From: a virus
DNA: 20,855 bases
Direction: 5' to 3' (one strand)
Virus record (IMG/VR): IMGVR_UViG_3300033571_005072
Location: 1 to 20,855 of that record
Shown: positions 1-13,633 of the stretch, piece after piece
Layout: every line of letters begins with the position of its first letter
How positions within the stretch are numbered: position 1 is the stretch's first letter
Position numbers and translations under genes: made by a program
The notes under the pieces: generated by a model
Told to the model about the DNA's origin: nothing
Database searches by the model: none
The model's input: the letters and a program-made list of their open reading frames with translations, nothing else

Positions 1-222
1 CCCAAGAATCCCGATGTCGAGATTCTGGCTGACTCCATCGGCTTCAAGGCCCCCAAGGAGACGAGGGAGAGACTGACTTGGTTGAGGAAGTGCCTTAACT
101 ATTCCGCTAACCGCATCGTGATCGAGGCCGTGGATGCCGTCTATAACATGATCCAAGTAGGCCACACCCACACCCCCGACATTGTTCTTCGTGGTCGGGA
201 CTTGAAGAAATACGTGCAATGA
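1..222 (+). CDS. Unrecognised protein, C-terminal part (5' end outside window)
   Basis: An open frame enters at base 1 and runs 73 codons to a TGA at 220-222. The visible part is soluble-looking and mixed in charge, with a middle segment reading ETRERLTWLRKCLNYSANRI and a tail ending in RGRDLKKYVQ. I see no signal peptide, membrane segment or motif that places it in a family. Its stop overlaps the integrase start as ATGA (219-222), so the two genes are probably translationally coupled and in one operon. By position it could be a recombination accessory or simply the last gene of an early operon; nothing in the residues decides this. Confidence 0.7.
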   Translation, partial: PKNPDVEILADSIGFKAPKETRERLTWLRKCLNYSANRIVIEAVDAVYNMIQVGHTHTPDIVLRGRDLKKYVQ

Positions 223-1361
223 TTTCAGGCAAGGCCATTAGGAGGGGGAACTGGTGGCACATCGGATGGTACGAAGGGGGCCGATGGATGCAGAAATCCA
301 CCCATATGAGGGCCGAGGGAAACAATCCCCCGCCGGAGGTTAATCGGCTCCTCGCCGATATTCAGGAGAAGCTCAAATGCTTTAAGACGGGGGAAGAATA
401 TATCCCGAAGCTCTTGGTTTCTGAGGCTTTCTTAGAATGGAGCAAGGAGGATGCAAAGATTTCCAAGGAGGGAACTTGGAAGTATAGGCAGGCCTTTGTT
501 CCCCGTACCCTTGGGGAGGAGTTTTTCAAGAAGATGGTGGCCCATGTCAACGAGGGCGACATCCTTAGCGTGATCGGGAGGCTCAATCAGCATGGCATGG
601 CCTACCAAACCAAACTCACGGTCTTTGCCTCTTGCGCCTCCTTCTGGGATTTTTGCGTCAAGAAGGGCTATTCCAAGACCCAGTTCTTCCATAAGTTCAA
701 CAAGAAGAAGATTAAGGGCGACATGGAGCCACGCCTTGAGAGGCGGGCTCTTTCCTATGAGGAGCAGGATCGGATCTTCTCCCTACTCAAGTCCTATAAG
801 AAGAAGTGGCCCCTTACCTGTGCCATGATCGGGGTGTGGACGGGGGCTAGAATCTCGGAAGCCATACAAGTCAGGAAGGACAATCTCTTCTTCGATGAGA
901 AGGAGTTCAACGGGAAGGTAGTTCCACATATCAGGATCAAAGACATTAAGCGGGGCGGGGTGATCATGGAAAAAGTGATGAGCCCGATCCTTGCCGAGTA
1001 CCTGAAGGATCTGCCGGAGGATGCCTTTCCAAACGACAGGGTGAACAAACAGAAGCTTGCCTATTATTTCCAAGCCGCCGCCAAGGAGGCGGGGGTTCCC
1101 AACGCCACCTTCCATTGGCTTAGGCACACCTTGGCCTCACGGCTCTACGACATGGGCGTGGAGGAGCGTCTTGCCTCTGCGATCATTGGTCATTCACAAG
1201 CTGTTCACAAGGAGTATGCCCATGCTTCCAAGTCGAAGCTCTTGGACAAATTGACCCAAGTTGGGAATGTCGAGGTTTTGTCGAGTTTTGGGGTCAAAAA
1301 CGACAAAATTATGACACAACAAGCAACACTTATTACTGACAAGGAGGCCTCTTCTCTCTGA
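219..1361 (+). CDS. Tyrosine recombinase (phage integrase), 380 aa
   Basis: Site-specific recombinase expected to integrate and excise the phage chromosome between attP and a host attB. The catalytic domain is complete: Arg211 in TGARISEA, Lys candidates at 241/244, His299 and Arg302 in FHWLRHT, His325 in GHS, and the nucleophile Tyr333 in KEYAHAS. The N-terminus (about 1-35, with GNWWHIGWYEGGRW) looks like a small arm-type DNA-binding domain, followed by a SAM-like core-binding domain at about 65-160. Length is normal for the family. A 47-residue tail follows Tyr333. The ATG overlaps the previous stop (ATGA) and has only a weak Shine-Dalgarno, so coupling probably drives translation. The 3' end contains one TGTC-N7-TGTC repeat and an imperfect inverted repeat, so part of the att region may lie inside the gene. 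Confidence 0.95.
   Translation: MISGKAIRRGNWWHIGWYEGGRWMQKSTHMRAEGNNPPPEVNRLLADIQEKLKCFKTGEEYIPKLLVSEAFLEWSKEDAKISKEGTWKYRQAFVPRTLGEEFFKKMVAHVNEGDILSVIGRLNQHGMAYQTKLTVFASCASFWDFCVKKGYSKTQFFHKFNKKKIKGDMEPRLERRALSYEEQDRIFSLLKSYKKKWPLTCAMIGVWTGARISEAIQVRKDNLFFDEKEFNGKVVPHIRIKDIKRGGVIMEKVMSPILAEYLKDLPEDAFPNDRVNKQKLAYYFQAAAKEAGVPNATFHWLRHTLASRLYDMGVEERLASAIIGHSQAVHKEYAHASKSKLLDKLTQVGNVEVLSSFGVKNDKIMTQQATLITDKEASSL
1268..1282 (+). repeat. TGTC-N7-TGTC motif, copy 1
   Basis: TGTCGAGGTTTTGTC, inside the integrase 3' end. Two TGTC boxes start 11 bp apart, about one helical turn. The consensus over four copies is TGTC-KAGKWWW-TGTC. Candidate binding site for the integrase or an accessory factor (inference). 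Confidence 0.6.
1276..1308. repeat. Imperfect inverted repeat in the integrase 3' end
   Basis: TTTTGTCG (1276-1283) is matched by CGACAAAA (1301-1308). Inside it, TTTTG (1286-1290) pairs with CAAAA (1295-1299) around a GGGT loop. This gives 13 base pairs broken by a small internal loop. No T-run follows on either strand, so it is a poor intrinsic terminator. It overlaps TGTC motif copy 1. Confidence 0.6.
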
Positions 1362-1371
1362 CCAAGTTCGT

Positions 1372-1389
1372 CTAATAAGCACTTACAAG
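1372..1389 (+). repeat. CTAATAAGC-type repeat, copy 1
   Basis: CTAATAAGC followed by ACTTACAAG. Copy 2 at 1928-1945 has CTAATAAGC followed by CTTCACAAG. It lies 15 bp upstream of the first 44-bp repeat. Confidence 0.5.
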
Positions 1390-1403
1390 CTTTTCGCAAA
1401 GTC

Positions 1404-1447
1404 CTCCTAGATAATGACTTACACCGAAAAACCAACAAGTTGCAAAA
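1404..1447 (+). repeat. 44-bp direct repeat, copy 1
   Basis: Forty-two of 44 bases match 2096-2139; the differences are at 1410/2102 and 1442/2134. The 31 bp from 1411 to 1441 are identical. Three bases after each copy a CTGTCKAG sequence begins, so the repeat unit extends into the TGTC motif. The two copies flank the ribbon-helix-helix gene in the same orientation. Confidence 0.95.
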
Positions 1448-1451
1448 GCTC

Positions 1452-1466
1452 TGTCGAGGAAATGTA
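1452..1466 (+). repeat. TGTC-N7-TGTC motif, copy 2
   Basis: TGTCGAGGAAATGTA: the second box ends in A instead of C. It lies just downstream of 44-bp repeat copy 1 and shares TGTCGAGG with copy 1 of the motif. Confidence 0.55.
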
Positions 1467-1493
1467 TTTATTAAGTTGGGAATAGTTGCGCCA

Positions 1494-1502
1494 CTAAAAG
1501 CC
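1494..1502 (+). repeat. CTAAAAGCC repeat, copy 1
   Basis: CTAAAAGCC occurs at 1494-1502, 1920-1928 and 2030-2038, always on the + strand and always in the non-coding parts of this region. Confidence 0.5.
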
Positions 1503-1636
1503 CTATCATTACCGTCCCTACTCTCTCCAATGGATGCCTTAGATTAAGAAACCCCACTGACCTGTACCAAAAAATTAAGACCCGCCTATTTTTTTAAAAA
1601 CGGCTTTATGAAACCTCCGTAAACGGATCGCTTTTA

Positions 1637-1891
1637 TCAGTTCGACTTTTTAGTTCTTAAAACCGCAACAATATTGGGAACACGAGCAATATCCTTTCCA
1701 ACCGACATTTCATGAATTCCATCAACACATTCAATAAGACAACGAGTGACGGAGTATCCAGTAATCTTGGCCATTGCGACTAGCCTTTTGCGAGTTTCCA
1801 ACGGAGCTCTTATACCCTTTGTATCTTCTTGCAAACTAGGATGAATGCTTGGCTTTTTACGCTTATACCTATCTGATTCAAATTCATTCAT
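1637..1891 (-). CDS. Small ribbon-helix-helix DNA-binding protein, 84 aa
   Basis: A short basic protein, probably a transcriptional regulator or recombination directionality factor. After a charged N-terminus (RYKRKKP at 8-14) comes a ribbon-helix-helix pattern: a strand around 26-31 (GIRAPL), helix A about 32-44 (ETRKRLVAMAKIT), Gly45 turn, and helix B about 46-60. This matches the Arc/CopG layout in which a strand pair reads the operator. The only AAAGGAG-like Shine-Dalgarno (about 1907-1914) is 16 nt from the ATG, longer than usual, and an in-frame TAG rules out an earlier start. The gene sits between two copies of a 44-bp repeat on the strand opposite to int. Local TGTC repeats or the palindrome at 2075-2084 are plausible operators. 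Excisionase, autoregulator or antitoxin roles are possible; no toxin gene is adjacent. Confidence 0.65.
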   Translation of the reverse strand: MNEFESDRYKRKKPSIHPSLQEDTKGIRAPLETRKRLVAMAKITGYSVTRCLIECVDGIHEMSVGKDIARVPNIVAVLRTKKSN

Positions 1892-1919
1892 AGGTAAAAA
1901 CTAATTACTCCTTTTTAAA

Positions 1920-1928
1920 CTAAAAGCC
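1920..1928 (+). repeat. CTAAAAGCC repeat, copy 2
   Basis: Identical to 1494-1502. It runs directly into CTAATAAGC copy 2, sharing one base. Confidence 0.5.
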
Positions 1929-1945
1929 TAATAAGCCTTCACAAG
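1928..1945 (+). repeat. CTAATAAGC-type repeat, copy 2
   Basis: CTAATAAGC followed by CTTCACAAG, the partner of 1372-1389. It lies 17 bp upstream of TGTC motif copy 3 and covers the region where a promoter for the small regulator would be expected. Confidence 0.5.
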
Positions 1946-1962
1946 AGCCTTAAAAATGGCGT

Positions 1963-1977
1963 TGTCTAGGAAATGTC
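1963..1977 (+). repeat. TGTC-N7-TGTC motif, copy 3
   Basis: TGTCTAGGAAATGTC followed by GGG, as after copy 4. The 11-bp box spacing is kept. Confidence 0.6.
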
Positions 1978-2029
1978 GGGTAATTGCTCTATTTTTTTGA
2001 TTTTTGTCAGTTCTAGTTACAGATACCCG

Positions 2030-2038
2030 CTAAAAGCC
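2030..2038 (+). repeat. CTAAAAGCC repeat, copy 3
   Basis: Identical to copies at 1494 and 1920; preceded by G rather than A. Confidence 0.5.
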
Positions 2039-2043
2039 CCATT

Positions 2044-2060
2044 TTTTCCTGAGAGGAAAA
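2044..2060. repeat. 7-bp hairpin with 3-nt loop
   Basis: TTTTCCT (2044-2050), GAG, AGGAAAA (2054-2060). It lies about 100 bp beyond the end of the late operon on its downstream side. Neither strand shows a proper T-run after the stem, so it is only a weak candidate for ending late transcription. Confidence 0.4.
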
Positions 2061-2074
2061 CGACTAACAGGCTC

Positions 2075-2084
2075 TAACTAGTTA
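2075..2084. promoter_or_regulatory. Perfect 10-bp palindrome, possible operator
   Basis: TAACTAGTTA is self-complementary. It lies between CTAAAAGCC copy 3 and 44-bp repeat copy 2. CTAGTTA occurs again at 2013-2019. An operator for the neighbouring ribbon-helix-helix protein is possible, but palindromes this short arise by chance in AT-rich DNA. Confidence 0.3.
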
Positions 2085-2095
2085 ACGATACCTTG

Positions 2096-2139
2096 CTCCT
2101 AAATAATGACTTACACCGAAAAACCAACAAGTTACAAAA
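2096..2139 (+). repeat. 44-bp direct repeat, copy 2
   Basis: Second copy of 1404-1447, with two mismatches. The copies start 692 bp apart. TGTC motif copy 4 starts four bases after it ends, as motif copy 2 does after repeat copy 1. Confidence 0.95.
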
Positions 2140-2143
2140 CTGC

Positions 2144-2158
2144 TGTCTAGTTTTTGTC
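2144..2158 (+). repeat. TGTC-N7-TGTC motif, copy 4
   Basis: TGTCTAGTTTTTGTC followed by GGG. It ends just before the lysozyme stop codon, marking the edge of the repeat region. Confidence 0.6.
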
Positions 2159-2162
2159 GGGC

Positions 2163-2921
2163 TTAACTTGCGAACAATTCGGCCTCTTCCACCCTGCGCT
2201 TCTGAACTCCCTTTAGCGGGCTGTGCTGGGCCATTGCCTTAATCAATCCGGCTACTGGCCTCACATTGCCCCTAGAAAGATTTTCGTGGATGGCCTGCAT
2301 CTCCTCCCGCTTCTTGCCCTTTAGGGCCGTTCCTCGGTTAAATACCAAGCTGACCAAGGCCGTCTTCTGGCGGGCATTGAGGTTGTCGAAATTGGGAAAG
2401 GTTTGGTAGGCCTTCATAATCCAACGGGGGAGTGTAACCTTCATAAACTGCTTGAAGGCCACCTCGTAGGGGATCACCACTCCAACCACATCCCGATGAG
2501 CCTGCTTCGCCGTCCAGCCCCGAAGCCCGCTCACCTTGCAAAGCTTCTGGATGTCCTCGCCTGAGATGAACCCCTGCCAGTCGTTTTTGATCTCGTCTGG
2601 CGTATAGTAACCAAGGTCGTAACCAACCCCGATGGTTAGGCCCGAAGCCTCGTTCAGGGGCTCTAGAGGGGTTGTCAGGTATCGGTTGTAGTAGCGGATT
2701 GAGCCCACCTCAAAATTGACGATCTTGCTTACAAGCTCCTCCGGCGGGAGCCAGCCGTGATAGGTGGTGTAGTTGGGCTTCTCCTTGGCTGGCTTGGCCT
2801 CGGCCTTTGGCTCATCCGGCTTGGACTCCTGCTTCTTGGGCTCCTCCACAAGCGTTTGCCCAACCACGCTCTTGAACCAATTTAGTCCCCTTGCCAGTCC
2901 TTCACTTACTCCTCGGCTCAT
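2163..2921 (-). CDS. GH24-like phage lysozyme (muramidase), 252 aa
   Basis: Peptidoglycan hydrolase expected to cleave the MurNAc-GlcNAc bond for lysis or genome entry. The catalytic domain begins near residue 60. Glu71 in NFEVGS fits the GH24 catalytic glutamate, followed by GLTIGVGYDLGYYT (94-107), a LVSLVFNRGTAL segment like the conserved ALVSFVFN of lambdoid lysozymes, and a C-terminal RRVEEAELF like the RRRAEEALLF end of P22/P1-type enzymes. An Asp at the T4 Asp20 position is not obvious. Residues 1-60 form an extension: a possible amphipathic helix (about 8-25), then a Pro/Lys/Glu linker. There is no signal peptide or SAR helix. The start at 2921 overlaps the previous stop as ATGA and has GGAGGA five bases upstream, far better than an upstream frame start at 2981. 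It is the last gene of the late operon. Confidence 0.85.
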   Translation of the reverse strand: MSRGVSEGLARGLNWFKSVVGQTLVEEPKKQESKPDEPKAEAKPAKEKPNYTTYHGWLPPEELVSKIVNFEVGSIRYYNRYLTTPLEPLNEASGLTIGVGYDLGYYTPDEIKNDWQGFISGEDIQKLCKVSGLRGWTAKQAHRDVVGVVIPYEVAFKQFMKVTLPRWIMKAYQTFPNFDNLNARQKTALVSLVFNRGTALKGKKREEMQAIHENLSRGNVRPVAGLIKAMAQHSPLKGVQKRRVEEAELFAS

Positions 2922-3574
2922 ACCAGTCCTCCGTTGTTTGGGCCTGTCGGCCAGAATACCAAGCTGTACCGAGTACCCCACCAGACGGGTGAGGCCATGT
3001 GTTTAAGATAACACGGGAACATGGTTGCGGAGCCTTGCTCCTTTACCCGATCCCATCCGTTCCATTTATGACAACGGATCTTAAGCCTTCCGCCAACATA
3101 GGACTTTGGCGATGAGAGATTGACCGAGATGGCAATCTTTCGCCTATCCCCGCCTGCGGCGTTGTCGAAGTGCCATCCGTAGAACTGGGGCTTCAGCGGA
3201 CTGCCTTTATAGATCGTGAACTGAAATCTGTTGGATGGGCAGAGGGCGAACCCATATACCCTTGCGGCGTAAGCCAGCAGATTCTCAAGACGCTGGAAGA
3301 TCCAGTCCGTTTGATCATGCCTGCCCACCCAACTTAAATTGCAACGCCTCCCATTGTCCTTCTTGAACTTGCCGTCATCGCTCATTCCAAGGCCTGATAA
3401 AACCTCATTCGCCAAGCCTATCTCGATGATCCGCTCGCATTCATCCGGCGTGAATGAATTGGGGAGCGTGAAGGCATCGCAGACTTTCGTGTATTTGAGG
3501 TGTTCGGGCTCCACCTGTTCGGCCTGATAACCAGTCACCAGCGTCCCGCTTCCCACGCTCATCGTCATGCTCAT
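2918..3574 (-). CDS. 2OG-Fe(II) dioxygenase, prolyl-4-hydroxylase-like, 218 aa
   Basis: Non-haem iron oxygenase that would use 2-oxoglutarate and O2 to hydroxylate a substrate, probably in the host cytoplasm. The double-stranded beta-helix motifs are present: His135 and Asp137 in GWHFDN (HxD), a strand reading KIAISVNLSS then SYVGGRLKI (158-166, like the YxGGEL segment of P4H and PKHD enzymes), distal His192, and Arg202 ten residues later in TRYSLVFW as the 2OG-carboxylate ligand. Length fits the PKHD/PiuC-like group. Such oxygenases are known in marine phage genomes with unsettled substrates. It overlaps the neighbouring genes by ATGA on both sides, so it is embedded in the late operon. Several Met codons near the start (1, 3, 5) leave the exact start open. 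Possible substrates here include the proline-rich virion-type protein at 9930-10889 (inference). Confidence 0.85.
   Translation of the reverse strand: MSMTMSVGSGTLVTGYQAEQVEPEHLKYTKVCDAFTLPNSFTPDECERIIEIGLANEVLSGLGMSDDGKFKKDNGRRCNLSWVGRHDQTDWIFQRLENLLAYAARVYGFALCPSNRFQFTIYKGSPLKPQFYGWHFDNAAGGDRRKIAISVNLSSPKSYVGGRLKIRCHKWNGWDRVKEQGSATMFPCYLKHMASPVWWGTRYSLVFWPTGPNNGGLV
2927..2932 (-). promoter_or_regulatory. Ribosome binding site deciding the lysozyme start
   Basis: GGAGGA on the - strand, five bases before the ATG at 2921. This favours the 252-aa start over one 20 codons earlier that overlaps the oxygenase gene. Confidence 0.8.
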
Positions 3575-3948
3575 AGGTCAGCCAGAATCCTCCAGCTTGA
3601 GCCCGTTTTGATGGGACGCTTGGAGTTTCTCTTTTTGCATTCCTTGGCCTTTGCGATCCAAAAGAGATCCTCGTCCATACCCCAAAGGACAAACGCATCC
3701 ACACCTGATTTATAGGCCCGCTTCTTTGTGCATCCCTTGGAAGTCATAAACCCGTATCTGTTCCGCTTCGGATCACGCTTCTCCGAGGTTTTGACTTGGA
3801 TGCGGATAAATTTTCCGCCCTTTTCGGCAACGAGGTCATAGCCTGCAAAATCCTCCAGCGGAGCCAGCACCGAATAACCCAACCGAAGCAGGGCGGAAGC
3901 CACCCTCGACACACCCACGGCCCCGATTTGACGATTGCTTAGTTTCAA
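3571..3948 (-). CDS. PD-(D/E)XK nuclease-like protein, 125 aa (PDDEXK_5 type), one acidic position altered
   Basis: A small predicted nuclease-fold protein. An N-terminal helix (about 8-24, ending RLGY) is followed by GYDLVAEKGGKFIRIQVKTS (36-55), giving Asp38, Gln51 and Lys53, the D-x12-Q-x-K pattern of the PDDEXK_5 group that includes the intron nuclease I-Ssp6803I. In that group a helix glutamate sits about 25 residues before the Asp, typically in GE; here that place reads GV (Val13), so activity may be lost or changed. The rest is basic. The only in-frame start is TTG at 3948, because a TAA lies 12 codons upstream and no ATG or GTG intervenes. The stop overlaps the oxygenase start (ATGA). 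It could be a homing-type, repair or inactive DNA-binding protein. Confidence 0.75.
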   Translation of the reverse strand: MKLSNRQIGAVGVSRVASALLRLGYSVLAPLEDFAGYDLVAEKGGKFIRIQVKTSEKRDPKRNRYGFMTSKGCTKKRAYKSGVDAFVLWGMDEDLFWIAKAKECKKRNSKRPIKTGSSWRILADL

Positions 3949-3984: not shown

Positions 3985-6900
3985 TTACATCTTATCGTCA
4001 ATCGAAGAGTTATATCTTTCCAATGTCTTAATCATCAGGGCTTTCTGTCTCTCCCTGTTGGCATCCAGCCTCTTCTGAATGGCCGGATTGGTTCTGTTCT
4101 TATCCATCTCCTGAAGCTTTCGTTTCTGGGTTCTTAGCTCCTTCAAGTCCTGCTCCGTGGCCCTGACCATGTTGACCAAGCGAAGTTCCGGCTTTGCATC
4201 CCGCAGGATCTCCCTGACCTTCTCGGTGTCCCCCTCTTGTTTTGCCAGCTTGAGTTCCTTGTCAATCGTCAGGATCTCTTTCCTCACATCCTGATATCGC
4301 TTCACATCCACAAAACTCGGAACGCTCCCAGTAACCTTGCGAACCATCGGAATGTCTCCGATAAGGTCAACGGCATCCTCCTGACCCGCCGCAACCTTCG
4401 CCGCCCTGATTGGGGCCATCATCACCCGCTCTCCAAACTTTCCAACCGCTCCGGCAAGAAACTCGTATCCATAGTCAAGGGTTTCGGGGCTGACATCAAT
4501 CGCTCCAGCCCTAGCCTTTGATCCTCCAGTAAGCTCATTCAGCTTCTCCGTCACCCACTTACTTACCGGATTCACATTATTCCAATAACGCTGGGAATCG
4601 GGCGGAGGCACGGGATCAAAGGGATTTGGGGTCGGCATGATCGGCCTTCCGGAGAAATCCTGATTGAGGGCCAAGTCAACGAGAGGAGTGGTGATGGTCG
4701 GTGAGATGGCCTGCAGGAGAGAATAAGAGCCCCCGATGGGGTTGAAGTTGTCGATGGCCGCTAAAGCAAGGCTAGTTGCGGCCTGCATCGGGCTTTTGCC
4801 TCCCCCGTAGATTTCCCTTGGCATGACATCGCCCACAAGCTGTCCCGCAAAGTCAAAAACGGAGTAGCCGTAGGGCATCGGAAACTTGAAGTATTGAATC
4901 CCCATCTCTTCGGCCAAGGGATTCATAATGATGAAATTCTGCCTGCGCTGGTATTCGGGGATCTTGTCGTAAAGGGGCATCCCAGTCTCGTCCTCACCCC
5001 CGATGATGCGGTTGAGAATATCCCTGAAGAATCCGGCCACCATCACCGCAAGGACAAGCTTCTGGGCCTTCTTGCTTGTGGCGAGGGCTTGGATGATTCG
5101 GGCCGAGCCTTGGATGTTGGCGTTGAAGAAGAGATAAACGGCGTTGAGGAGCGGGCCTGCCGTCCCCTTGCGGGTGAAATTGACCGTGATGTTGCGAGCC
5201 GCATAAGCGGCCTGCTGGTCGGTGTAGCCTCGCTCCTTTAGGGTGGCAAAGGTGGCAAGACGGGTTGCGTTTTCAACTGCGCCGTTGAGTTGCCCCACCC
5301 TGTCCAAGGCCAGCCTGAACACCCTTGTTGCGGCATTGCTCCCGCCTCCGGCCAGCTTGGACTGGATCTGCTTCTGGAGGGTCTGGAAATCCTTAAGCCC
5401 GAAGAAAGTCATCCTGCCACCAGCGGCCTTGAACTGGCGGTAGAACACATCCATCCGGCTTCCTTGGTCGGGCTTGCCAAGCTCCGCCCGATAGGTGGCC
5501 TTGAGGGCGGGCCGGATGTTCTTGAGCAAGTCCCTCGCAAGGCCTTGGGCTTGGTCGGAGTTGATGTTAACCAAGGCGGTCTGAAGATCCCTTGCGAAGT
5601 TGGAGATGACAAACTCCGGCGAGGCCTGCGTGTTGATGAAGGCAAAGTAGCGGTTGGCCGAGGCCAGCGTTCCAATGAATGAGCCAAGCACGGGGCTGGC
5701 CCTGTTCTTCATCACATCGGCCAGCCTTGGGTCATTGATGCGGAGGTATTTGGTTTCGCCGTTGTCCTTGAAGGCAATGATATCGGGGGCCTGCGGGTTG
5801 CCAGTCTCGCCCTTGGGGAGAACTTCAATCACTCCATTTTCAGGATAAGAGATGGCAAACTGCTCGGCGGTCTGCATTACCCTGTTCTTCTCCGAGCGGA
5901 TAATTGAATCCATGTATTTCTGGAAGGAATAGGCAAGGATGTCGGTAGCCCTTGTGTTCCTGCCCTCCGCAAGAATGATGTCGTTTCCCCTGACATCGAA
6001 GCCAGCCCCAGTCCCGATTGTTTTTGTCCTTTCCCCCGTTACATCCTCGGAGAGCCCCGTGTCGGCCCCCATCAGCGGAACATAGTTTTGATACCTTTCC
6101 GTGAGCAGGTCATAGGTTTCCCTGTTGATCAGGCCACCCTCATAGAGGTTGAGGATTCCACGCCGATTGACCTCAAGGAGCCTTTGCCGGATCGGCTCGA
6201 ACCTTGCCTGCCATTCGTAGTCAATCCCCCCGTCCACCAGAAGGCTGTCGGCCTCATCATTGGTCAGTCCGCTTCCACCATCCTGCTTGTTGGGATCATT
6301 CGGGAATCGCTGGGCAATGACGGCATTGCGCTCCTTGGCGTGTTTGGCCATCGCATACAGGTCAAAGATATCCTTGTTCGGCACAAACTTCCTAGGCTTC
6401 CCATTCGCATCCACCAGCCCGTCAAAATACTTCTTCTTGATCTCGGCAACCCAAGGAATCCTCTCATTCAGGTTAAGGCCAGCAACCTCCTCGGTGATCG
6501 GCTTTGCAAAATTCTCGTCAAACTCGGTCAGTCTTTCGCCAACCCTGCCGTGATAAAGTTCCTCGGCCTGTTTGATGTTGGCAAAGTCCCTGATCTCAAT
6601 GCCACCGCCCACCCGTTTCTGGAGATTTTCGACATCCACGAACTTATCTTGGAAGGTGCGCCGGAAGTCATCCAAGCCCGTCTTCAGCGTTTGTCTAATT
6701 CCGACCTGAGCCTGTCTGGCTTCCGGCTGTCTGGGTGAGGCCGATTTCCTGTTATTCCTAACCTGAACACCACGAATCGGCTCCCCGCCTCGGAAGGCCC
6801 TGTCGGCAAAGATAAAGGCATCGGGCTTGACCACACGCCTGCCGAATCTTTGCCCTCCGTCAATCACAAGGCCGGATGTTTCCCTATCGGTTCCAACAAC

Positions 6901-9051
6901 CCTAAAGTCCACATTCCCACGCCGGATGATATCGCCAGCCGAAAGATTGGAGGCCTGATAGGAAATGTCGCCAGCTTTGGGGCGGAACAGGGATGAACGG
7001 AAGGCCTGCCTCTGGGTTTCTGTCTGGCGAAGGCCCTTGTTGTAATCTCTGGTTTTCCTTCTGGATTCGATTGCCTTTGTCACGGCATTCCAAAGCCCGC
7101 CGGAGGTTCCATCCCCAATTCCGAGATTCTCAAATGCGGACTGGGCCATCTTATCCACAGATGTGGTTCCGCTCATCAGCTTGAGGTATGGGCCGTCCAG
7201 CTTGGGCATTCCGTCATATTCGGCTGGCTTGGTTGTCTCCGTTGTTCTTTTGAGCGAAGGCCCGCCCTTTTTCCCATAGAGGCCGATATTCTTTTGTTCC
7301 ATCGCCTTACGCATTGAAAGCATCCCGCCCTCTTCCTGAATGAAATCTATGATGTCATAGCCAGTCTCGTCCGGCTGAAGGATCTCTTCGGCGAGAGCCT
7401 TTGTCGGTCTTTCGGCCCTGCGGAGAATGTTTTCCCGCTCGCTCACAACCTGATTCAGCCGCTCGTCATAATAGGGAGCCTGATCAGGATCGTTCTCCTT
7501 CAGCCGACCAAGATCCTTTTCAATCGTGTCCAGCCTCGTAAGCCTTGCCTTCTCGCCAGCCGAAAGAACCACATCCTCCCTCTTTGGGACTGGCAATGGC
7601 TCTGGCCTTACCTCTTCCGCTGGCTGAACCTGAGCCTCCTGAGCCTGCGTCTCCGGCTGAACTTCGGCCTGTTCCGGCCTTTGAAATTCTGAGAAAGGCT
7701 GAAGACTTTGGGGCTCCTGAGCCTGTGGCTCGTTTGTAGCCACACCCGCATTCTGCTCATTCTGATTGCGCCTTGCCTGACTCAGGCCAAACCCTCCAAT
7801 CACCCCTGATGCAATCGTGCCAACTGTTCCGCCCACCAAAGCCGCCTTGCCTGCCCCCTCAAACACATCCTGCTCCGGCTTATATTGGCCCTTGGCGATC
7901 AGGTTTCCCATCACCTGCTGGAAGCCCTCCTGCAAGGCCTCGGTTCCGCCCTCAATTCCCATATCAATAAAATACCTTCTTACATCCCTAGAAAACTTCC
8001 CAGCCGTGGCCCTGTCTATCTTCTCGATCCATCTCTCAGTCGGGAAGATTTCGCTCAAGCCCGTGGCTCCGCTAAGGAATCCGCTGGTCAGAACCTCCTC
8101 CGGCTTGGCTCCGGCTTGGCTTGCCCTCTGGGCTCCCTCCCCAGCCCCCAGCACAACTCCAGCACCAGCCGCCGCCGCCCTTGGAACCATTCTTGCCGGA
8201 ACTCCTAGGGCTCTGGCCGCTGGGCCAGCAAGCGGAAGCGTGGAGACTTGTCCAAGCCCGCCAGCCACCTCTGGAATAAAAGAGCCTTGGGCCTCTGGGA
8301 TTGTGGGATAAAGCCTTTCTCCTGCCTGCTCTATGCCCTGAGCAATTCTGGCTCCTGCCGTTGCCTCGAACGGGTATGGCTCTCCTTTTATTGGGATTCC
8401 CAAGGCAGACTCGGCAAGGCCATAGGTTCTGGCCAAGGCCGCTGGGCCTGTGACGAGGGCTCCCTTGGCAAACCTGCCAAGGCTTTCTCTGGCTACGGCT
8501 GATTCGCTTGGGGAGATTCTCTGATCTGGAGCAATGTCTGGGAGTGATGGGGTCTGTTTCTTTTCCTCTTCCAATATCTGCTGATAGATACTCTGTCTTG
8601 GCTCTTTTTCCACCCTGACCACCTTCCCGTCCTTATCCCTCCCCACGGCAAACCCAACGCCCTTCTCCTGATCATAGCCGGAGGAAACTGTATCTACGCC
8701 CTCTTCGAGGGCTTTCTTCACGGCAGGCTCGGCCCTCTTCTCGATCAGGCCTTTGGCTAGGGCTTCCTCGGTTGGAAGTGTCGGGCCAGCGATGGAGCCG
8801 TCTTCTCGCTTTAACGGAGGTTCGGCCATTAGGGCTTCCGGCCCCTGCTCTACAAGAATCTTCGCCCGCTCTGGGCTATAAACATCTTCTGGTTTTCCGC
8901 CCTGCTCCACATACTCCCGCTTGGTATTGGATGCCTCAATAAGCGAGGCCTCCTCATCGAGGATTGCCTGATACGGACTAACCTTCTTTGCTGGCTTCTC
9001 TTTTTCGAGAAGTCGCTTCTCTTCCCCTAGGATTTGATCGTAGATTGACAC
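3985..9051 (-). CDS. Giant polyvalent protein with LPD38-type domain, 1688 aa, probable ejected internal virion protein
   Basis: The largest gene of the window. By family it is a phage polyvalent protein thought to be packaged and delivered with the genome; by order it occupies the place of T7 gp16. N-terminus: three short repeats, IYDQILGEE (3-11), PYQAILDEE (26-34) and IYQQILEEE (155-163). Then an Ala/Gly-rich region (about 260-425) with a hydrophobic stretch near 400-425, a Pro/Gln/Glu linker (about 430-495), and a long helical middle. A region of about 1130-1360 contains PEFVISNFARDLQ, NFTRKGTAGPLLNAVYLFFN and a hydrophobic LVLAVMVAGFF segment, which I recognise as LPD38-like. The C-terminus (about 1575-1685) is a charged coiled coil. 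I see no lysozyme or transglycosylase motif. The start is GTG, bounded by an in-frame TGA just upstream; its GAGG box is very close. Translation may be coupled to the gene at 9062. Confidence 0.85.
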   Translation of the reverse strand: MSIYDQILGEEKRLLEKEKPAKKVSPYQAILDEEASLIEASNTKREYVEQGGKPEDVYSPERAKILVEQGPEALMAEPPLKREDGSIAGPTLPTEEALAKGLIEKRAEPAVKKALEEGVDTVSSGYDQEKGVGFAVGRDKDGKVVRVEKEPRQSIYQQILEEEKKQTPSLPDIAPDQRISPSESAVARESLGRFAKGALVTGPAALARTYGLAESALGIPIKGEPYPFEATAGARIAQGIEQAGERLYPTIPEAQGSFIPEVAGGLGQVSTLPLAGPAARALGVPARMVPRAAAAGAGVVLGAGEGAQRASQAGAKPEEVLTSGFLSGATGLSEIFPTERWIEKIDRATAGKFSRDVRRYFIDMGIEGGTEALQEGFQQVMGNLIAKGQYKPEQDVFEGAGKAALVGGTVGTIASGVIGGFGLSQARRNQNEQNAGVATNEPQAQEPQSLQPFSEFQRPEQAEVQPETQAQEAQVQPAEEVRPEPLPVPKREDVVLSAGEKARLTRLDTIEKDLGRLKENDPDQAPYYDERLNQVVSERENILRRAERPTKALAEEILQPDETGYDIIDFIQEEGGMLSMRKAMEQKNIGLYGKKGGPSLKRTTETTKPAEYDGMPKLDGPYLKLMSGTTSVDKMAQSAFENLGIGDGTSGGLWNAVTKAIESRRKTRDYNKGLRQTETQRQAFRSSLFRPKAGDISYQASNLSAGDIIRRGNVDFRVVGTDRETSGLVIDGGQRFGRRVVKPDAFIFADRAFRGGEPIRGVQVRNNRKSASPRQPEARQAQVGIRQTLKTGLDDFRRTFQDKFVDVENLQKRVGGGIEIRDFANIKQAEELYHGRVGERLTEFDENFAKPITEEVAGLNLNERIPWVAEIKKKYFDGLVDANGKPRKFVPNKDIFDLYAMAKHAKERNAVIAQRFPNDPNKQDGGSGLTNDEADSLLVDGGIDYEWQARFEPIRQRLLEVNRRGILNLYEGGLINRETYDLLTERYQNYVPLMGADTGLSEDVTGERTKTIGTGAGFDVRGNDIILAEGRNTRATDILAYSFQKYMDSIIRSEKNRVMQTAEQFAISYPENGVIEVLPKGETGNPQAPDIIAFKDNGETKYLRINDPRLADVMKNRASPVLGSFIGTLASANRYFAFINTQASPEFVISNFARDLQTALVNINSDQAQGLARDLLKNIRPALKATYRAELGKPDQGSRMDVFYRQFKAAGGRMTFFGLKDFQTLQKQIQSKLAGGGSNAATRVFRLALDRVGQLNGAVENATRLATFATLKERGYTDQQAAYAARNITVNFTRKGTAGPLLNAVYLFFNANIQGSARIIQALATSKKAQKLVLAVMVAGFFRDILNRIIGGEDETGMPLYDKIPEYQRRQNFIIMNPLAEEMGIQYFKFPMPYGYSVFDFAGQLVGDVMPREIYGGGKSPMQAATSLALAAIDNFNPIGGSYSLLQAISPTITTPLVDLALNQDFSGRPIMPTPNPFDPVPPPDSQRYWNNVNPVSKWVTEKLNELTGGSKARAGAIDVSPETLDYGYEFLAGAVGKFGERVMMAPIRAAKVAAGQEDAVDLIGDIPMVRKVTGSVPSFVDVKRYQDVRKEILTIDKELKLAKQEGDTEKVREILRDAKPELRLVNMVRATEQDLKELRTQKRKLQEMDKNRTNPAIQKRLDANRERQKALMIKTLERYNSSIDDKM

Positions 9052-11317: not shown

Positions 11318-12897
11318 AGCACCTGCGGCTTATAGGATTCGAGGAACGAGGAAAGGACGATGGATCGGATGGCCAGCTTGCCAGACGAGGAGGTTAGCTT
11401 CACCTGCACTCCCCTCACCGGAGTCCTTCCGCTCAAGTCCCTGCCCCTGCGCTTGGTTCCGCCCGAACCAAGGATGGCGGCGGCGTTAAGGACAAACGGG
11501 AGAACAAGCTGGTTGCCGATGGTGGAGATGTTATTTAGTACGGTTTCGGGCGATCCGCCGTCAGAGATGATCTGAACGGTGCAGTTGGCCAATGACTCGT
11601 AAAATTCAAGCTCGATCCCGTAGAGGCTCTTTAGGCTCACCACATCCCTGAAGGAAAACTCCCTTGTGACGATGGTGGTGGCGATGTCCGATCCGTCATC
11701 CCTGTAATCGGCCTCGGCCTCGTTGGCCTCGCTGACATTCCCCTTCCACCTCAAAACCCTCCCATTGCTTGTGCCTAAGCACATATCGTCATTGGGTGAT
11801 CTTGTGTATCTGGCAAAGCAGGTTCCAGCAAAGCCAGTCCATTTTCCGCTCCAAGTTTTGAAGTCCGTGTTAAAGACAATGGAGATGTCTGGGCTTTGGG
11901 AGAGTCCGGTGGGAATGGAAAGGACGTAGCGGTTAAGGTAGTAGAAGCCAGCCGACTTCTGCACATAGGAGAGATTGATGTCCTGAACAATGGAATCAAT
12001 CGGCTTGGAGAGGGGCTCGCTGATCTCCTGCTCCGTGCCTGCCAAGGTTCTGCGGAGGCTTCTTACTCCATCCAAGGCCAGCCAATAAACATCGGCCCCC
12101 ACTTGGGCCAAGGATCTTGGGGCGATGCAACCCACGCTCTTGTCAATCGTCTGGATCTCCCAATTTGCGATGGTGGCCGTAGGATCGGCGTTGATGACAT
12201 AAGTGGCCGTTCGCTTGAAGGCCAGAAGGCGGAACCCCGTCCAAGGATAAATGGCCGTAATGGGATCGCCGTCTCCCCCAATCCGAATGGATTGGATCAC
12301 ACTCCAGCTTGAGGAGCCCTCCGCATCCAATAGATCCGAGACATAGATCGCATCCGGTTCCCCGCTCGGAACCACGAAAAGCCTGTTCGTGTGGGAGGCA
12401 ATCAGCTTTGGGGCGGCGGGAGCCCCAGAGCTTGCATGAATGGATTTTACCGATACCCCGTCAAAATACTTCAGGCTTGATGTTCCGTCCGTGAAAAACA
12501 GCTTGTCCTCCAGTTGGGCGAAATGAACCTCATCGGATACGGTGCTTGTTAAATAGGAGGAGCCCTCCTGAGTCCAAGCCCCCGCCCCAGCGGTGGATGA
12601 GAAATGGAAAATCTTGCGGTTTTTGGCCACAACCATCTGGTCGTAGGTCTGGGTGTTGAAGAAGGCCATGCCCTGCACATAGGCAGTACCCTCCGGCAGA
12701 GCGGTGGAGGAAAGTGAGGCCGTTCCCTTCCTTGTGATGGCCGTTCCCGTCCGGTCAATATCGACATTGATAAGTTCGGAGGAGGCAAACTCGGAGAGAA
12801 GACGTGGGGCGGAAATGGAATCCATCCCGCCGCTGAATGAGCCAGTCGCATCAAACAGCAGAGGGTCATCCAGACTCTCCACATTCAGGACTGGCAT
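11314..12897 (-). CDS. Beta-propeller tail nozzle protein, T7 gp12-like, 527 aa
   Basis: Likely forms the distal tube of a short tail. The N-terminal part has the pattern GGMDSISAPRLLSEFASSEL, followed by NVDIDRTGTAITRKG (about 44-58), typical of this phage family. The body is a series of beta blades with repeated short phrases, such as VVAKNRKIFHF, KLFFTDGTSSLKYFDG, RLFVVPSGEPDAIYVSD, FKRTATYVI and VYWLALDGVRSL. The C-terminal part is a beta-rich domain ending SIVLSSFLESYKPQVL. At 527 aa it is shorter than T7 gp12 (about 790 aa). It follows the adaptor gene directly, the same order as T7 11-12. I assign it from the propeller pattern and context; another propeller-type tail protein cannot be excluded. 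Confidence 0.75.
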   Translation of the reverse strand: MPVLNVESLDDPLLFDATGSFSGGMDSISAPRLLSEFASSELINVDIDRTGTAITRKGTASLSSTALPEGTAYVQGMAFFNTQTYDQMVVAKNRKIFHFSSTAGAGAWTQEGSSYLTSTVSDEVHFAQLEDKLFFTDGTSSLKYFDGVSVKSIHASSGAPAAPKLIASHTNRLFVVPSGEPDAIYVSDLLDAEGSSSWSVIQSIRIGGDGDPITAIYPWTGFRLLAFKRTATYVINADPTATIANWEIQTIDKSVGCIAPRSLAQVGADVYWLALDGVRSLRRTLAGTEQEISEPLSKPIDSIVQDINLSYVQKSAGFYYLNRYVLSIPTGLSQSPDISIVFNTDFKTWSGKWTGFAGTCFARYTRSPNDDMCLGTSNGRVLRWKGNVSEANEAEADYRDDGSDIATTIVTREFSFRDVVSLKSLYGIELEFYESLANCTVQIISDGGSPETVLNNISTIGNQLVLPFVLNAAAILGSGGTKRRGRDLSGRTPVRGVQVKLTSSSGKLAIRSIVLSSFLESYKPQVL

Positions 12898-12901
12898 AAA
12901 C

Positions 12902-13633
12902 TTATCCCAAGCCTAAAAAGCTTGGCCTATATCCATCCCCAACGGCGGTATCCCAGTCATCCCTACTCCATTCGCCAGAATCCACCACATTTAGCTGAAG
13001 GTTGTTTGCGGCCTGAGATTGCTCCACATTGGTCGCCACCTTCACCTGAGCCACCCCGTCCTGCATCATTAGCTGGGATTTGGCGTATTGGCGGTCACGG
13101 GCCAGCATATCGGCCTCCCCAAACGAAATAAGCGCATTGTCTATGTTGTAGATGGCTGGCTGATCCCCGTCCTGCGTCAGGTTGCGGGTCTGGAATTGCG
13201 AGGAAGAGTCGATCACGCGAAGTTTGAGTTTCCCCAATACAGTCAGGGTCTTCGTCTCCTTGGGCTTCTGGACGAGCCTGATTCGGCATACGCCAGCCGT
13301 GGTTTTTGGCAGAGTGATGAAGGCCATGGGCGTACCAGAGTTGTCGAAAAGAGTGGGGTCAATCGCAAAGACCGCTTCGTGAGCCACGGGGCCGAGAGTT
13401 GTGTCGCTCCATCTTACGGCAACGATCTGATCAATAGTGGTGTCGCTGAGAGTAACATCTTGGGTGTCGGCAGGAACGCTCTGGGAGGCCGTGGTGAGCG
13501 TGTCCCTCCAGAGTTGACTCGACCAGATAAGCTCGTAGCGGCGGGCGATAAACTCCTTGCACTTGGCAAGCGAGTCGGAGTCGGTCTTCCCGACCTTCCC
13601 GCAGATGAAAGATGCCATGTCGGCCAGCGTCAC
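12902..13633 (-). CDS. Head-to-tail adaptor, T7 gp11-like, 243 aa
   Basis: Probable ring protein that joins the portal to the nozzle. The N-terminus has the adaptor helix pattern: LADMASFICGKVG, then LAKCKEFIARRYELIWSSQLWRDTL (about 22-46; compare the AYxxIWxxxxW phrase of this family). A beta-rich middle (about 55-150) and a C-terminal helical part with EADMLARDRQYAKSQLMMQDG (about 173-193) follow. The start is GTG at 13633, immediately after the previous TAA, with GAGG about five bases upstream; an ATG five codons later is the alternative. Its position before the nozzle gene supports the assignment. Confidence 0.75.
   Translation of the reverse strand: MTLADMASFICGKVGKTDSDSLAKCKEFIARRYELIWSSQLWRDTLTTASQSVPADTQDVTLSDTTIDQIVAVRWSDTTLGPVAHEAVFAIDPTLFDNSGTPMAFITLPKTTAGVCRIRLVQKPKETKTLTVLGKLKLRVIDSSSQFQTRNLTQDGDQPAIYNIDNALISFGEADMLARDRQYAKSQLMMQDGVAQVKVATNVEQSQAANNLQLNVVDSGEWSRDDWDTAVGDGYRPSFLGLG

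Follow-up and report, generated by a model that had tools for sequence, protein, structure and literature searches.

IMEX elements, such as the CTX phage, possess an attP without a recombinase of their own and use the host XerCD recombinase at dif. Phage morons are small, AT-rich extra genes that lie between phage genes and are absent from relatives. CIMEs (cis-mobilizable elements) likewise contain no recombinase gene, and their att sites match those of a partner element, with which they can accrete in tandem at a shared site and be co-excised (PMC5704250). In helper-embedded PICIs (HE-PICIs), attP is flanked on either side by a co-oriented doubled motif, for which the arm domains of the integrase or another protein have been suggested as the binding partner (PMC10111431), and directionality factors frequently use sites that are direct repeats spaced by one helix turn (PMC7498355). 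Here we describe an attachment locus that resembles these systems in a 20,855-nucleotide stretch of DNA, hereafter the window, which is the IMG/VR record IMGVR_UViG_3300033571_005072 of an uncultured phage. The favoured reading, to which we assign a probability of about 0.72, is that a 692-bp unit at this locus is a miniature integrase-less CIME-like element, with its own attP and one ribbon-helix-helix (RHH)-like gene, which was joined to the phage by integrase (Int)-mediated recombination.

The repeat pair and its setting

The unit is associated with two copies of a 44-bp block, at 1404-1447 (+) and 2096-2139 (+). Recounting gave the 42 of 44 identities reported in the preliminary description, with mismatches at 1410 and 1442; the perfect 31-bp block at 1411-1441 is the longest exact match between the copies, and their likeness is far above chance. 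Weaker similarity extends the alignment to 92 nt at 76% identity, longer than the repeat unit of ~60 bp initially proposed. In the 48 nt past the 44-bp block 28 of 48 positions match; the highest count among 40,166 alternative placements within the window was 27. A TGTC motif starts four bases past each copy, at 1452 and 2144, rather than three as first stated. The locus was correctly described as an AT-rich stretch on which two transcription units converge: GC content is 38.7% in the repeat/cassette stretch compared with 52.7% for the window, and the gene for a tyrosine integrase of 380 aa (219-1361 (+); Pfam PF00589, 9e-15) and a lysozyme-like gene (2163-2921 (-), in a reading frame open to 2981) run towards each other into the stretch between the repeats. 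No sigma-70-like promoters or terminators were recognised in 1200-2300. A tRNA or tmRNA was considered as the source of the repeat and dropped, as ARAGORN returned no match in the window.

The empty site in related phages

The window was compared with seven records from uncultured phages. The closest relative, L003, is a 39.9-kb contig found by a scan with the window integrase, to which its own integrase is 95% identical. Six further contigs, at ~60% identity, were retrieved with the large virion-associated protein as query, and an eighth, at 28%, was left out. BLASTN aligned the window with L003 as two collinear pieces, window 1-1447 and 2096 onward, both of which overlap in L003 on one copy of the 44-bp block (L003 7185-7228) that is identical to the right-hand copy of the window. 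No second copy of the block was found elsewhere in the entire L003 contig. The preliminary description had proposed a search for such a single-copy version, and this one has window-like flanks on both sides, the left flank at its left and the right flank at its right, with the 692-bp unit absent. The stops of the integrase and lysozyme genes are 801 bp apart in the window, 108 bp apart in L003 and ~180-190 bp apart in L010-L014, and the ~60% relatives also lack the unit. Since the unit is missing both from L003 and from the more distant relatives, its absence is the ancestral state, and the window lineage gained the unit by insertion. The early suggestion of a 0.7-kb inserted cassette carrying a regulator gene is thus borne out by L003; in addition, the cassette appears to have brought its own attP (see below). 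Exact identity between the two copies never exceeds 31 bp, so an assembler working with k above 31 would not be expected to join them falsely.

Gene order is kept in the ~60% relatives, which display a PDDEXK gene, a 2OG-oxygenase gene and the lysozyme-like gene, followed by the integrase gene and the small gene. The 2OG-Fe(II) oxygenase and PD-(D/E)XK endonuclease genes, located at 2918-3948 in the window, adjoin the lysozyme-like gene in all relatives, and the latter borders attP in all of them. In the 39.7-kb contig IMGVR_UViG_3300032334_000676 (L015/L022) the two ends overlap by ~116 bp inside attP; from this overlap, the assembly appears to be circular, with attP intact.

Searches of IMG/VR with 31-mers and 18-mers identified only the L003 contig as another carrier of the core. 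No second carrier of the cassette was found, and it is a single instance. The attP DNA had no match among annotated phages, and the 46-nt core gave chance-level matches only against phages. In genome_contigs, an exact 22-mer search revealed no host attB, and an integrase profile search no lysogens or integrated relatives. These two negative results, like the existence of a single instance, weigh against the favoured reading.

Anatomy of the attachment site

In every relative the stop regions of the integrase and lysozyme genes face each other over a short AT-rich stretch. Both sides of attP carry, throughout the family, a co-oriented doubled motif, TGTCGGG-N4-TGTCGGG with variants, that has an 11-bp period. 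The strict pattern TGTCKRG-N4-TGTCGRG occurs three times in the window, all at the attP locus, and in none of 100 shuffles; in eight records it is found solely at the attP locus, and the reversed control gave zero matches. The P-arm doublet of the phage (TGTCGAG-N4-TGTCGAG) lies at 1268-1285 (+) and its P'-arm doublet (TGTCTAG-N4-TGTCGGG) at 2144-2161 (+). Judged by sequence, this is the layout of a lambda-type attP, with arm-type motifs on either side of the core. One of the two readings offered in the preliminary description took the repeats as paired arm-type sites of an attP. The attP is upheld, but the 44-bp copies are best taken as the core identity blocks, and it is the adjoining TGTC doublets that are arm-like.

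The TGTC doublets are probably the arm-type sites of the integrase, a reading based on the doubled motif of HE-PICIs and on the structural model of the enzyme. The AF2 model displays a three-stranded sheet and a helix at residues 5-57 (pLDDT ~76-85; the overall pTM of 0.43 is modest), and its best Foldseek match is full-length lambda Int (1z1b). The N-terminus gave no Pfam arm-domain hit; as modelled, it resembles an arm-binding domain. By analogy, the doublets could instead be binding sites of a directionality factor. No strict doublet is present upstream of RHH-A, the RHH-like gene of the phage itself, which speaks against an operator for an RHH autoregulator. Inverted symmetry of the core revealed no convincing centre for the crossover point, and this counts against the favoured reading.

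In L010-L014, GGCTACAC and GTGTGTA elements around CTTAAAATTATRTAG are conserved between the integrase-side and lysozyme-side arms. This conservation is a property of the ~60% relatives and not of the window, and the attP core of L010-L014 may reside at these elements.

The 692-bp cassette

The cassette body (1448-2095), which is absent from the relatives, amounts to 692 bp together with one core copy. From left to right the locus consists of phage P (1268), core (1404), cassette P' (1452), the small gene RHH-B, cassette P (1963), core (2096) and phage P' (2144). The insertion lies at the core and, as repeat comparison and BLASTN against L003 demonstrate, both junctions are hybrid, the left core copy joining phage P to cassette P' and the right one cassette P to phage P'. 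The P-arm doublet of the cassette (TGTCTAG-N4-TGTCGGG) is located at 1963-1980 (+). Its P'-arm doublet at 1452-1469 (+) is degenerate in the second half (TGTCGAG-N4-TGTATTT, 10 of 14 informative positions), a feature counted against the favoured reading. When the cassette is circularised, P and P' are at core distances matching those of the phage attP, and the circle aligns in register with the phage attPs, its P and P' being 181 bp apart versus 184 bp. When the insert was shuffled 20,000 times, the P motif never fell at its expected position, and an equally good P' match arose in 0.5% of cases.

Beyond the P' arm of the cassette, homology runs up to the lysozyme stop codon, with a stub at 1471-1494 (-) that resembles the final codons of the phage's lysozyme gene (VAQLFPT-stop versus EAELFAS-stop). 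Between its own P arm and the core, the cassette bears no clear likeness to the phage. The gene content of the 692 bp is one 84-aa open reading frame of note, and a search of the cassette for an integrase remnant gave no similarity above shuffles. As a sequence, the 692-bp circle contains a complete attP and one gene but no integrase. This attP appears to derive from the same phage family and to be well diverged outside the core; a core that is nearly unchanged while the rest has diverged is expected if the core must match the same target. The sequence GGGCTTTTAGYGG is present at window 1491-1503 (-) and 2027-2039 (-), solely within the cassette and, in the circularised form, with one occurrence to either side of the core; this pattern, picked after the fact, could reflect binding sites for RHH-B, or chance.

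The small genes RHH-A and RHH-B

RHH-A (1-222 (+)), the 5' end of which is cut by the window edge, overlaps the integrase start with its stop codon (ATGA). The overlap recurs in L003, L010-L012 and L014, and L013 and the L015 contig likewise have a homologue at this position. In L003 the small RHH-like gene occupies 5726-6004 and the integrase gene 6001-7143; the corresponding locus of L010 is at 12264-13534, and the overlap is 4 bp or 1 bp.

RHH-B (1637-1891 (-), 84 aa) is a homologue of RHH-A, with 32% identity over 65 aa (pairwise E 1e-10), and its identity to the integrase-overlapping small gene of the family is 28-35%. None of the seven related records contains a second copy of the small gene, and searches of phages, plasmids and IMG/VR revealed no relatives of RHH-B beyond the RHH-A of this family. 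RHH-B had no Pfam or NCBIfam hit, and some of its homologues gave weak PHROG regulator or Arc-like hits. Its structural model comprises two helices after an extended stretch (pLDDT ~85), and Foldseek found no significant structure match. A small DNA-binding RHH gene had been placed between the repeats at the outset; the gene is indeed there, and an RHH identity is plausible given the sequence pattern, the two-helix model and the PHROG hits.

A directionality factor tilts Int towards excision by binding attP. The RHH-A homologue at the integrase start is a better candidate for such a factor in the phage than RHH-B. More broadly, this small gene is a candidate integrase regulator or a directionality factor of a new type; a literature search turned up no directionality factor of the RHH type. 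RHH-B, for its part, may regulate Int or excision. Its orientation relative to P is opposite to that of RHH-A, which counts against the favoured reading; being reversed, it also shows a layout not accounted for by a simple deletion inside a tandem prophage.

Origin of the cassette

The cassette has the appearance of a miniature hitchhiker, one that the phage integrase could insert and remove. It has its attachment core in common with the phage, and presumably its attB as well; the joining itself would have been a site-specific recombination carried out by Int inside the core, in the 31-bp block where both copies agree. Two routes seem most likely: phage and cassette would lie in tandem at a common attB, or a circular cassette would recombine with attR (or attP). 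Excision over the outermost att sites would then free a phage genome of the form P-core-P'c-[cassette]-Pc-core-P', and the element may be mobile at present. Joining that is independent of the integrase may provide an alternative route. The source contig may represent either a circular phage with the cassette or a phage-cassette-phage array in a chromosome, as it fits both. A bolder proposal, which we consider doubtful, is that sub-kilobase circles comprising a complete attP and one gene for a regulator of the helper integrase are moved in trans by the helper Int and spread in helper capsids; if true, these would be minimal phage hitchhikers, smaller than described satellites and without a recombinase of their own.

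It is quite possible, though somewhat short of an even chance, that the cassette is a decay remnant of two related phages in tandem at one attB, the inner of which was reduced almost entirely to its att ends and one gene and is inert, with no transfer history of its own. This account overlaps the favoured reading, of which it is the inert version. It is consistent with the lysozyme-stop stub past the P' arm, with the common family of RHH-A and RHH-B and with the view that CIMEs come from decay (PMC5704250), but an integrase remnant is not detectable in the cassette, and the RHH-B reading frame is intact, well diverged and in reverse orientation. The locus is unlikely to be a native control module of the phage, in which attP is tandem and RHH-B acts as directionality factor. 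No such module is present in relatives that share the integrase type, and the literature offered no RHH-type precedent, even though the homologue overlaps the integrase start across the family and the TGTC doublets resemble directionality-factor sites in being direct repeats one helix turn apart (PMC7498355).

Host chromosome lying between two prophages at neighbouring attB sites would generate similar-looking hybrid junctions and would accord with the GC contrast described above. Arm motifs of P and P' type on both sides, spaced as in an attP, and the lysozyme stub are, however, unexpected for attB, and RHH-B is a homologue from the phage family, making this origin highly improbable. Hardly credible at all is the reverse history, in which the two-copy arrangement is ancestral and L003 lost the middle through recombination between the repeats: the 44-bp direct repeat would allow deletion of the interior, but the unit is also missing outside the window-L003 pair, and its absence is hence ancestral.

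Under the favoured CIME-like reading, the locus provides a detailed case, complete with an almost identical empty counterpart, of a phage whose genome has grown by apparent site-specific accretion at the attP of the phage itself. Small genes, this case suggests, can enter temperate phages through attP, and integrase-less elements can be carried along in phage genomes provided that they retain an attP. For an uncultured phage family, the conserved TGTC doublets directly indicate where the integrase arm sites are likely to lie, and the RHH-A/RHH-B pair points to a possible new type of directionality factor.

Comparison with known systems

Like a CIME, the cassette has no integrase gene in its 692 bp and is bounded by att sites that appear compatible with those of its partner, as indicated by the 42/44 cores and the hybrid P/P' junctions. 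CIMEs, however, have been described for ICEs and IMEs in chromosomes (PMC5704250), whereas the cassette is phage-borne and contains one gene. CIMEs are also defined by ICE or IME ancestry, with loss of the genes for integration and transfer, while the lysozyme stub and the RHH homologue suggest that the cassette originated from a related phage. As the structure is that of a CIME but the origin appears not to be an ICE, the label CIME-like is used. The locus shares with HE-PICIs an element inside a phage genome and an attP with a doubled motif on both sides; HE-PICIs, in contrast, encode their own integrase and sit in the late genes of the helper (PMC10111431), whereas the cassette is without an integrase and lies within attP itself. 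Its identity as a PICI or other phage satellite was rejected, since it has one gene and neither its own integrase nor the satellite gene set. The cassette and IMEX elements both have an attP without their own recombinase, but IMEX elements use the host Xer system, whereas the candidate recombinase of the cassette is the phage integrase. As a small AT-rich extra gene the cassette is moron-like, differing in that its ends are attP cores and that it includes a full att site. The initial view of the locus as a possibly undescribed compact control module therefore needs qualification: integrase-less, att-flanked elements are known in the form of CIMEs, and what sets the present cassette apart is that it is tiny and borne by a phage.
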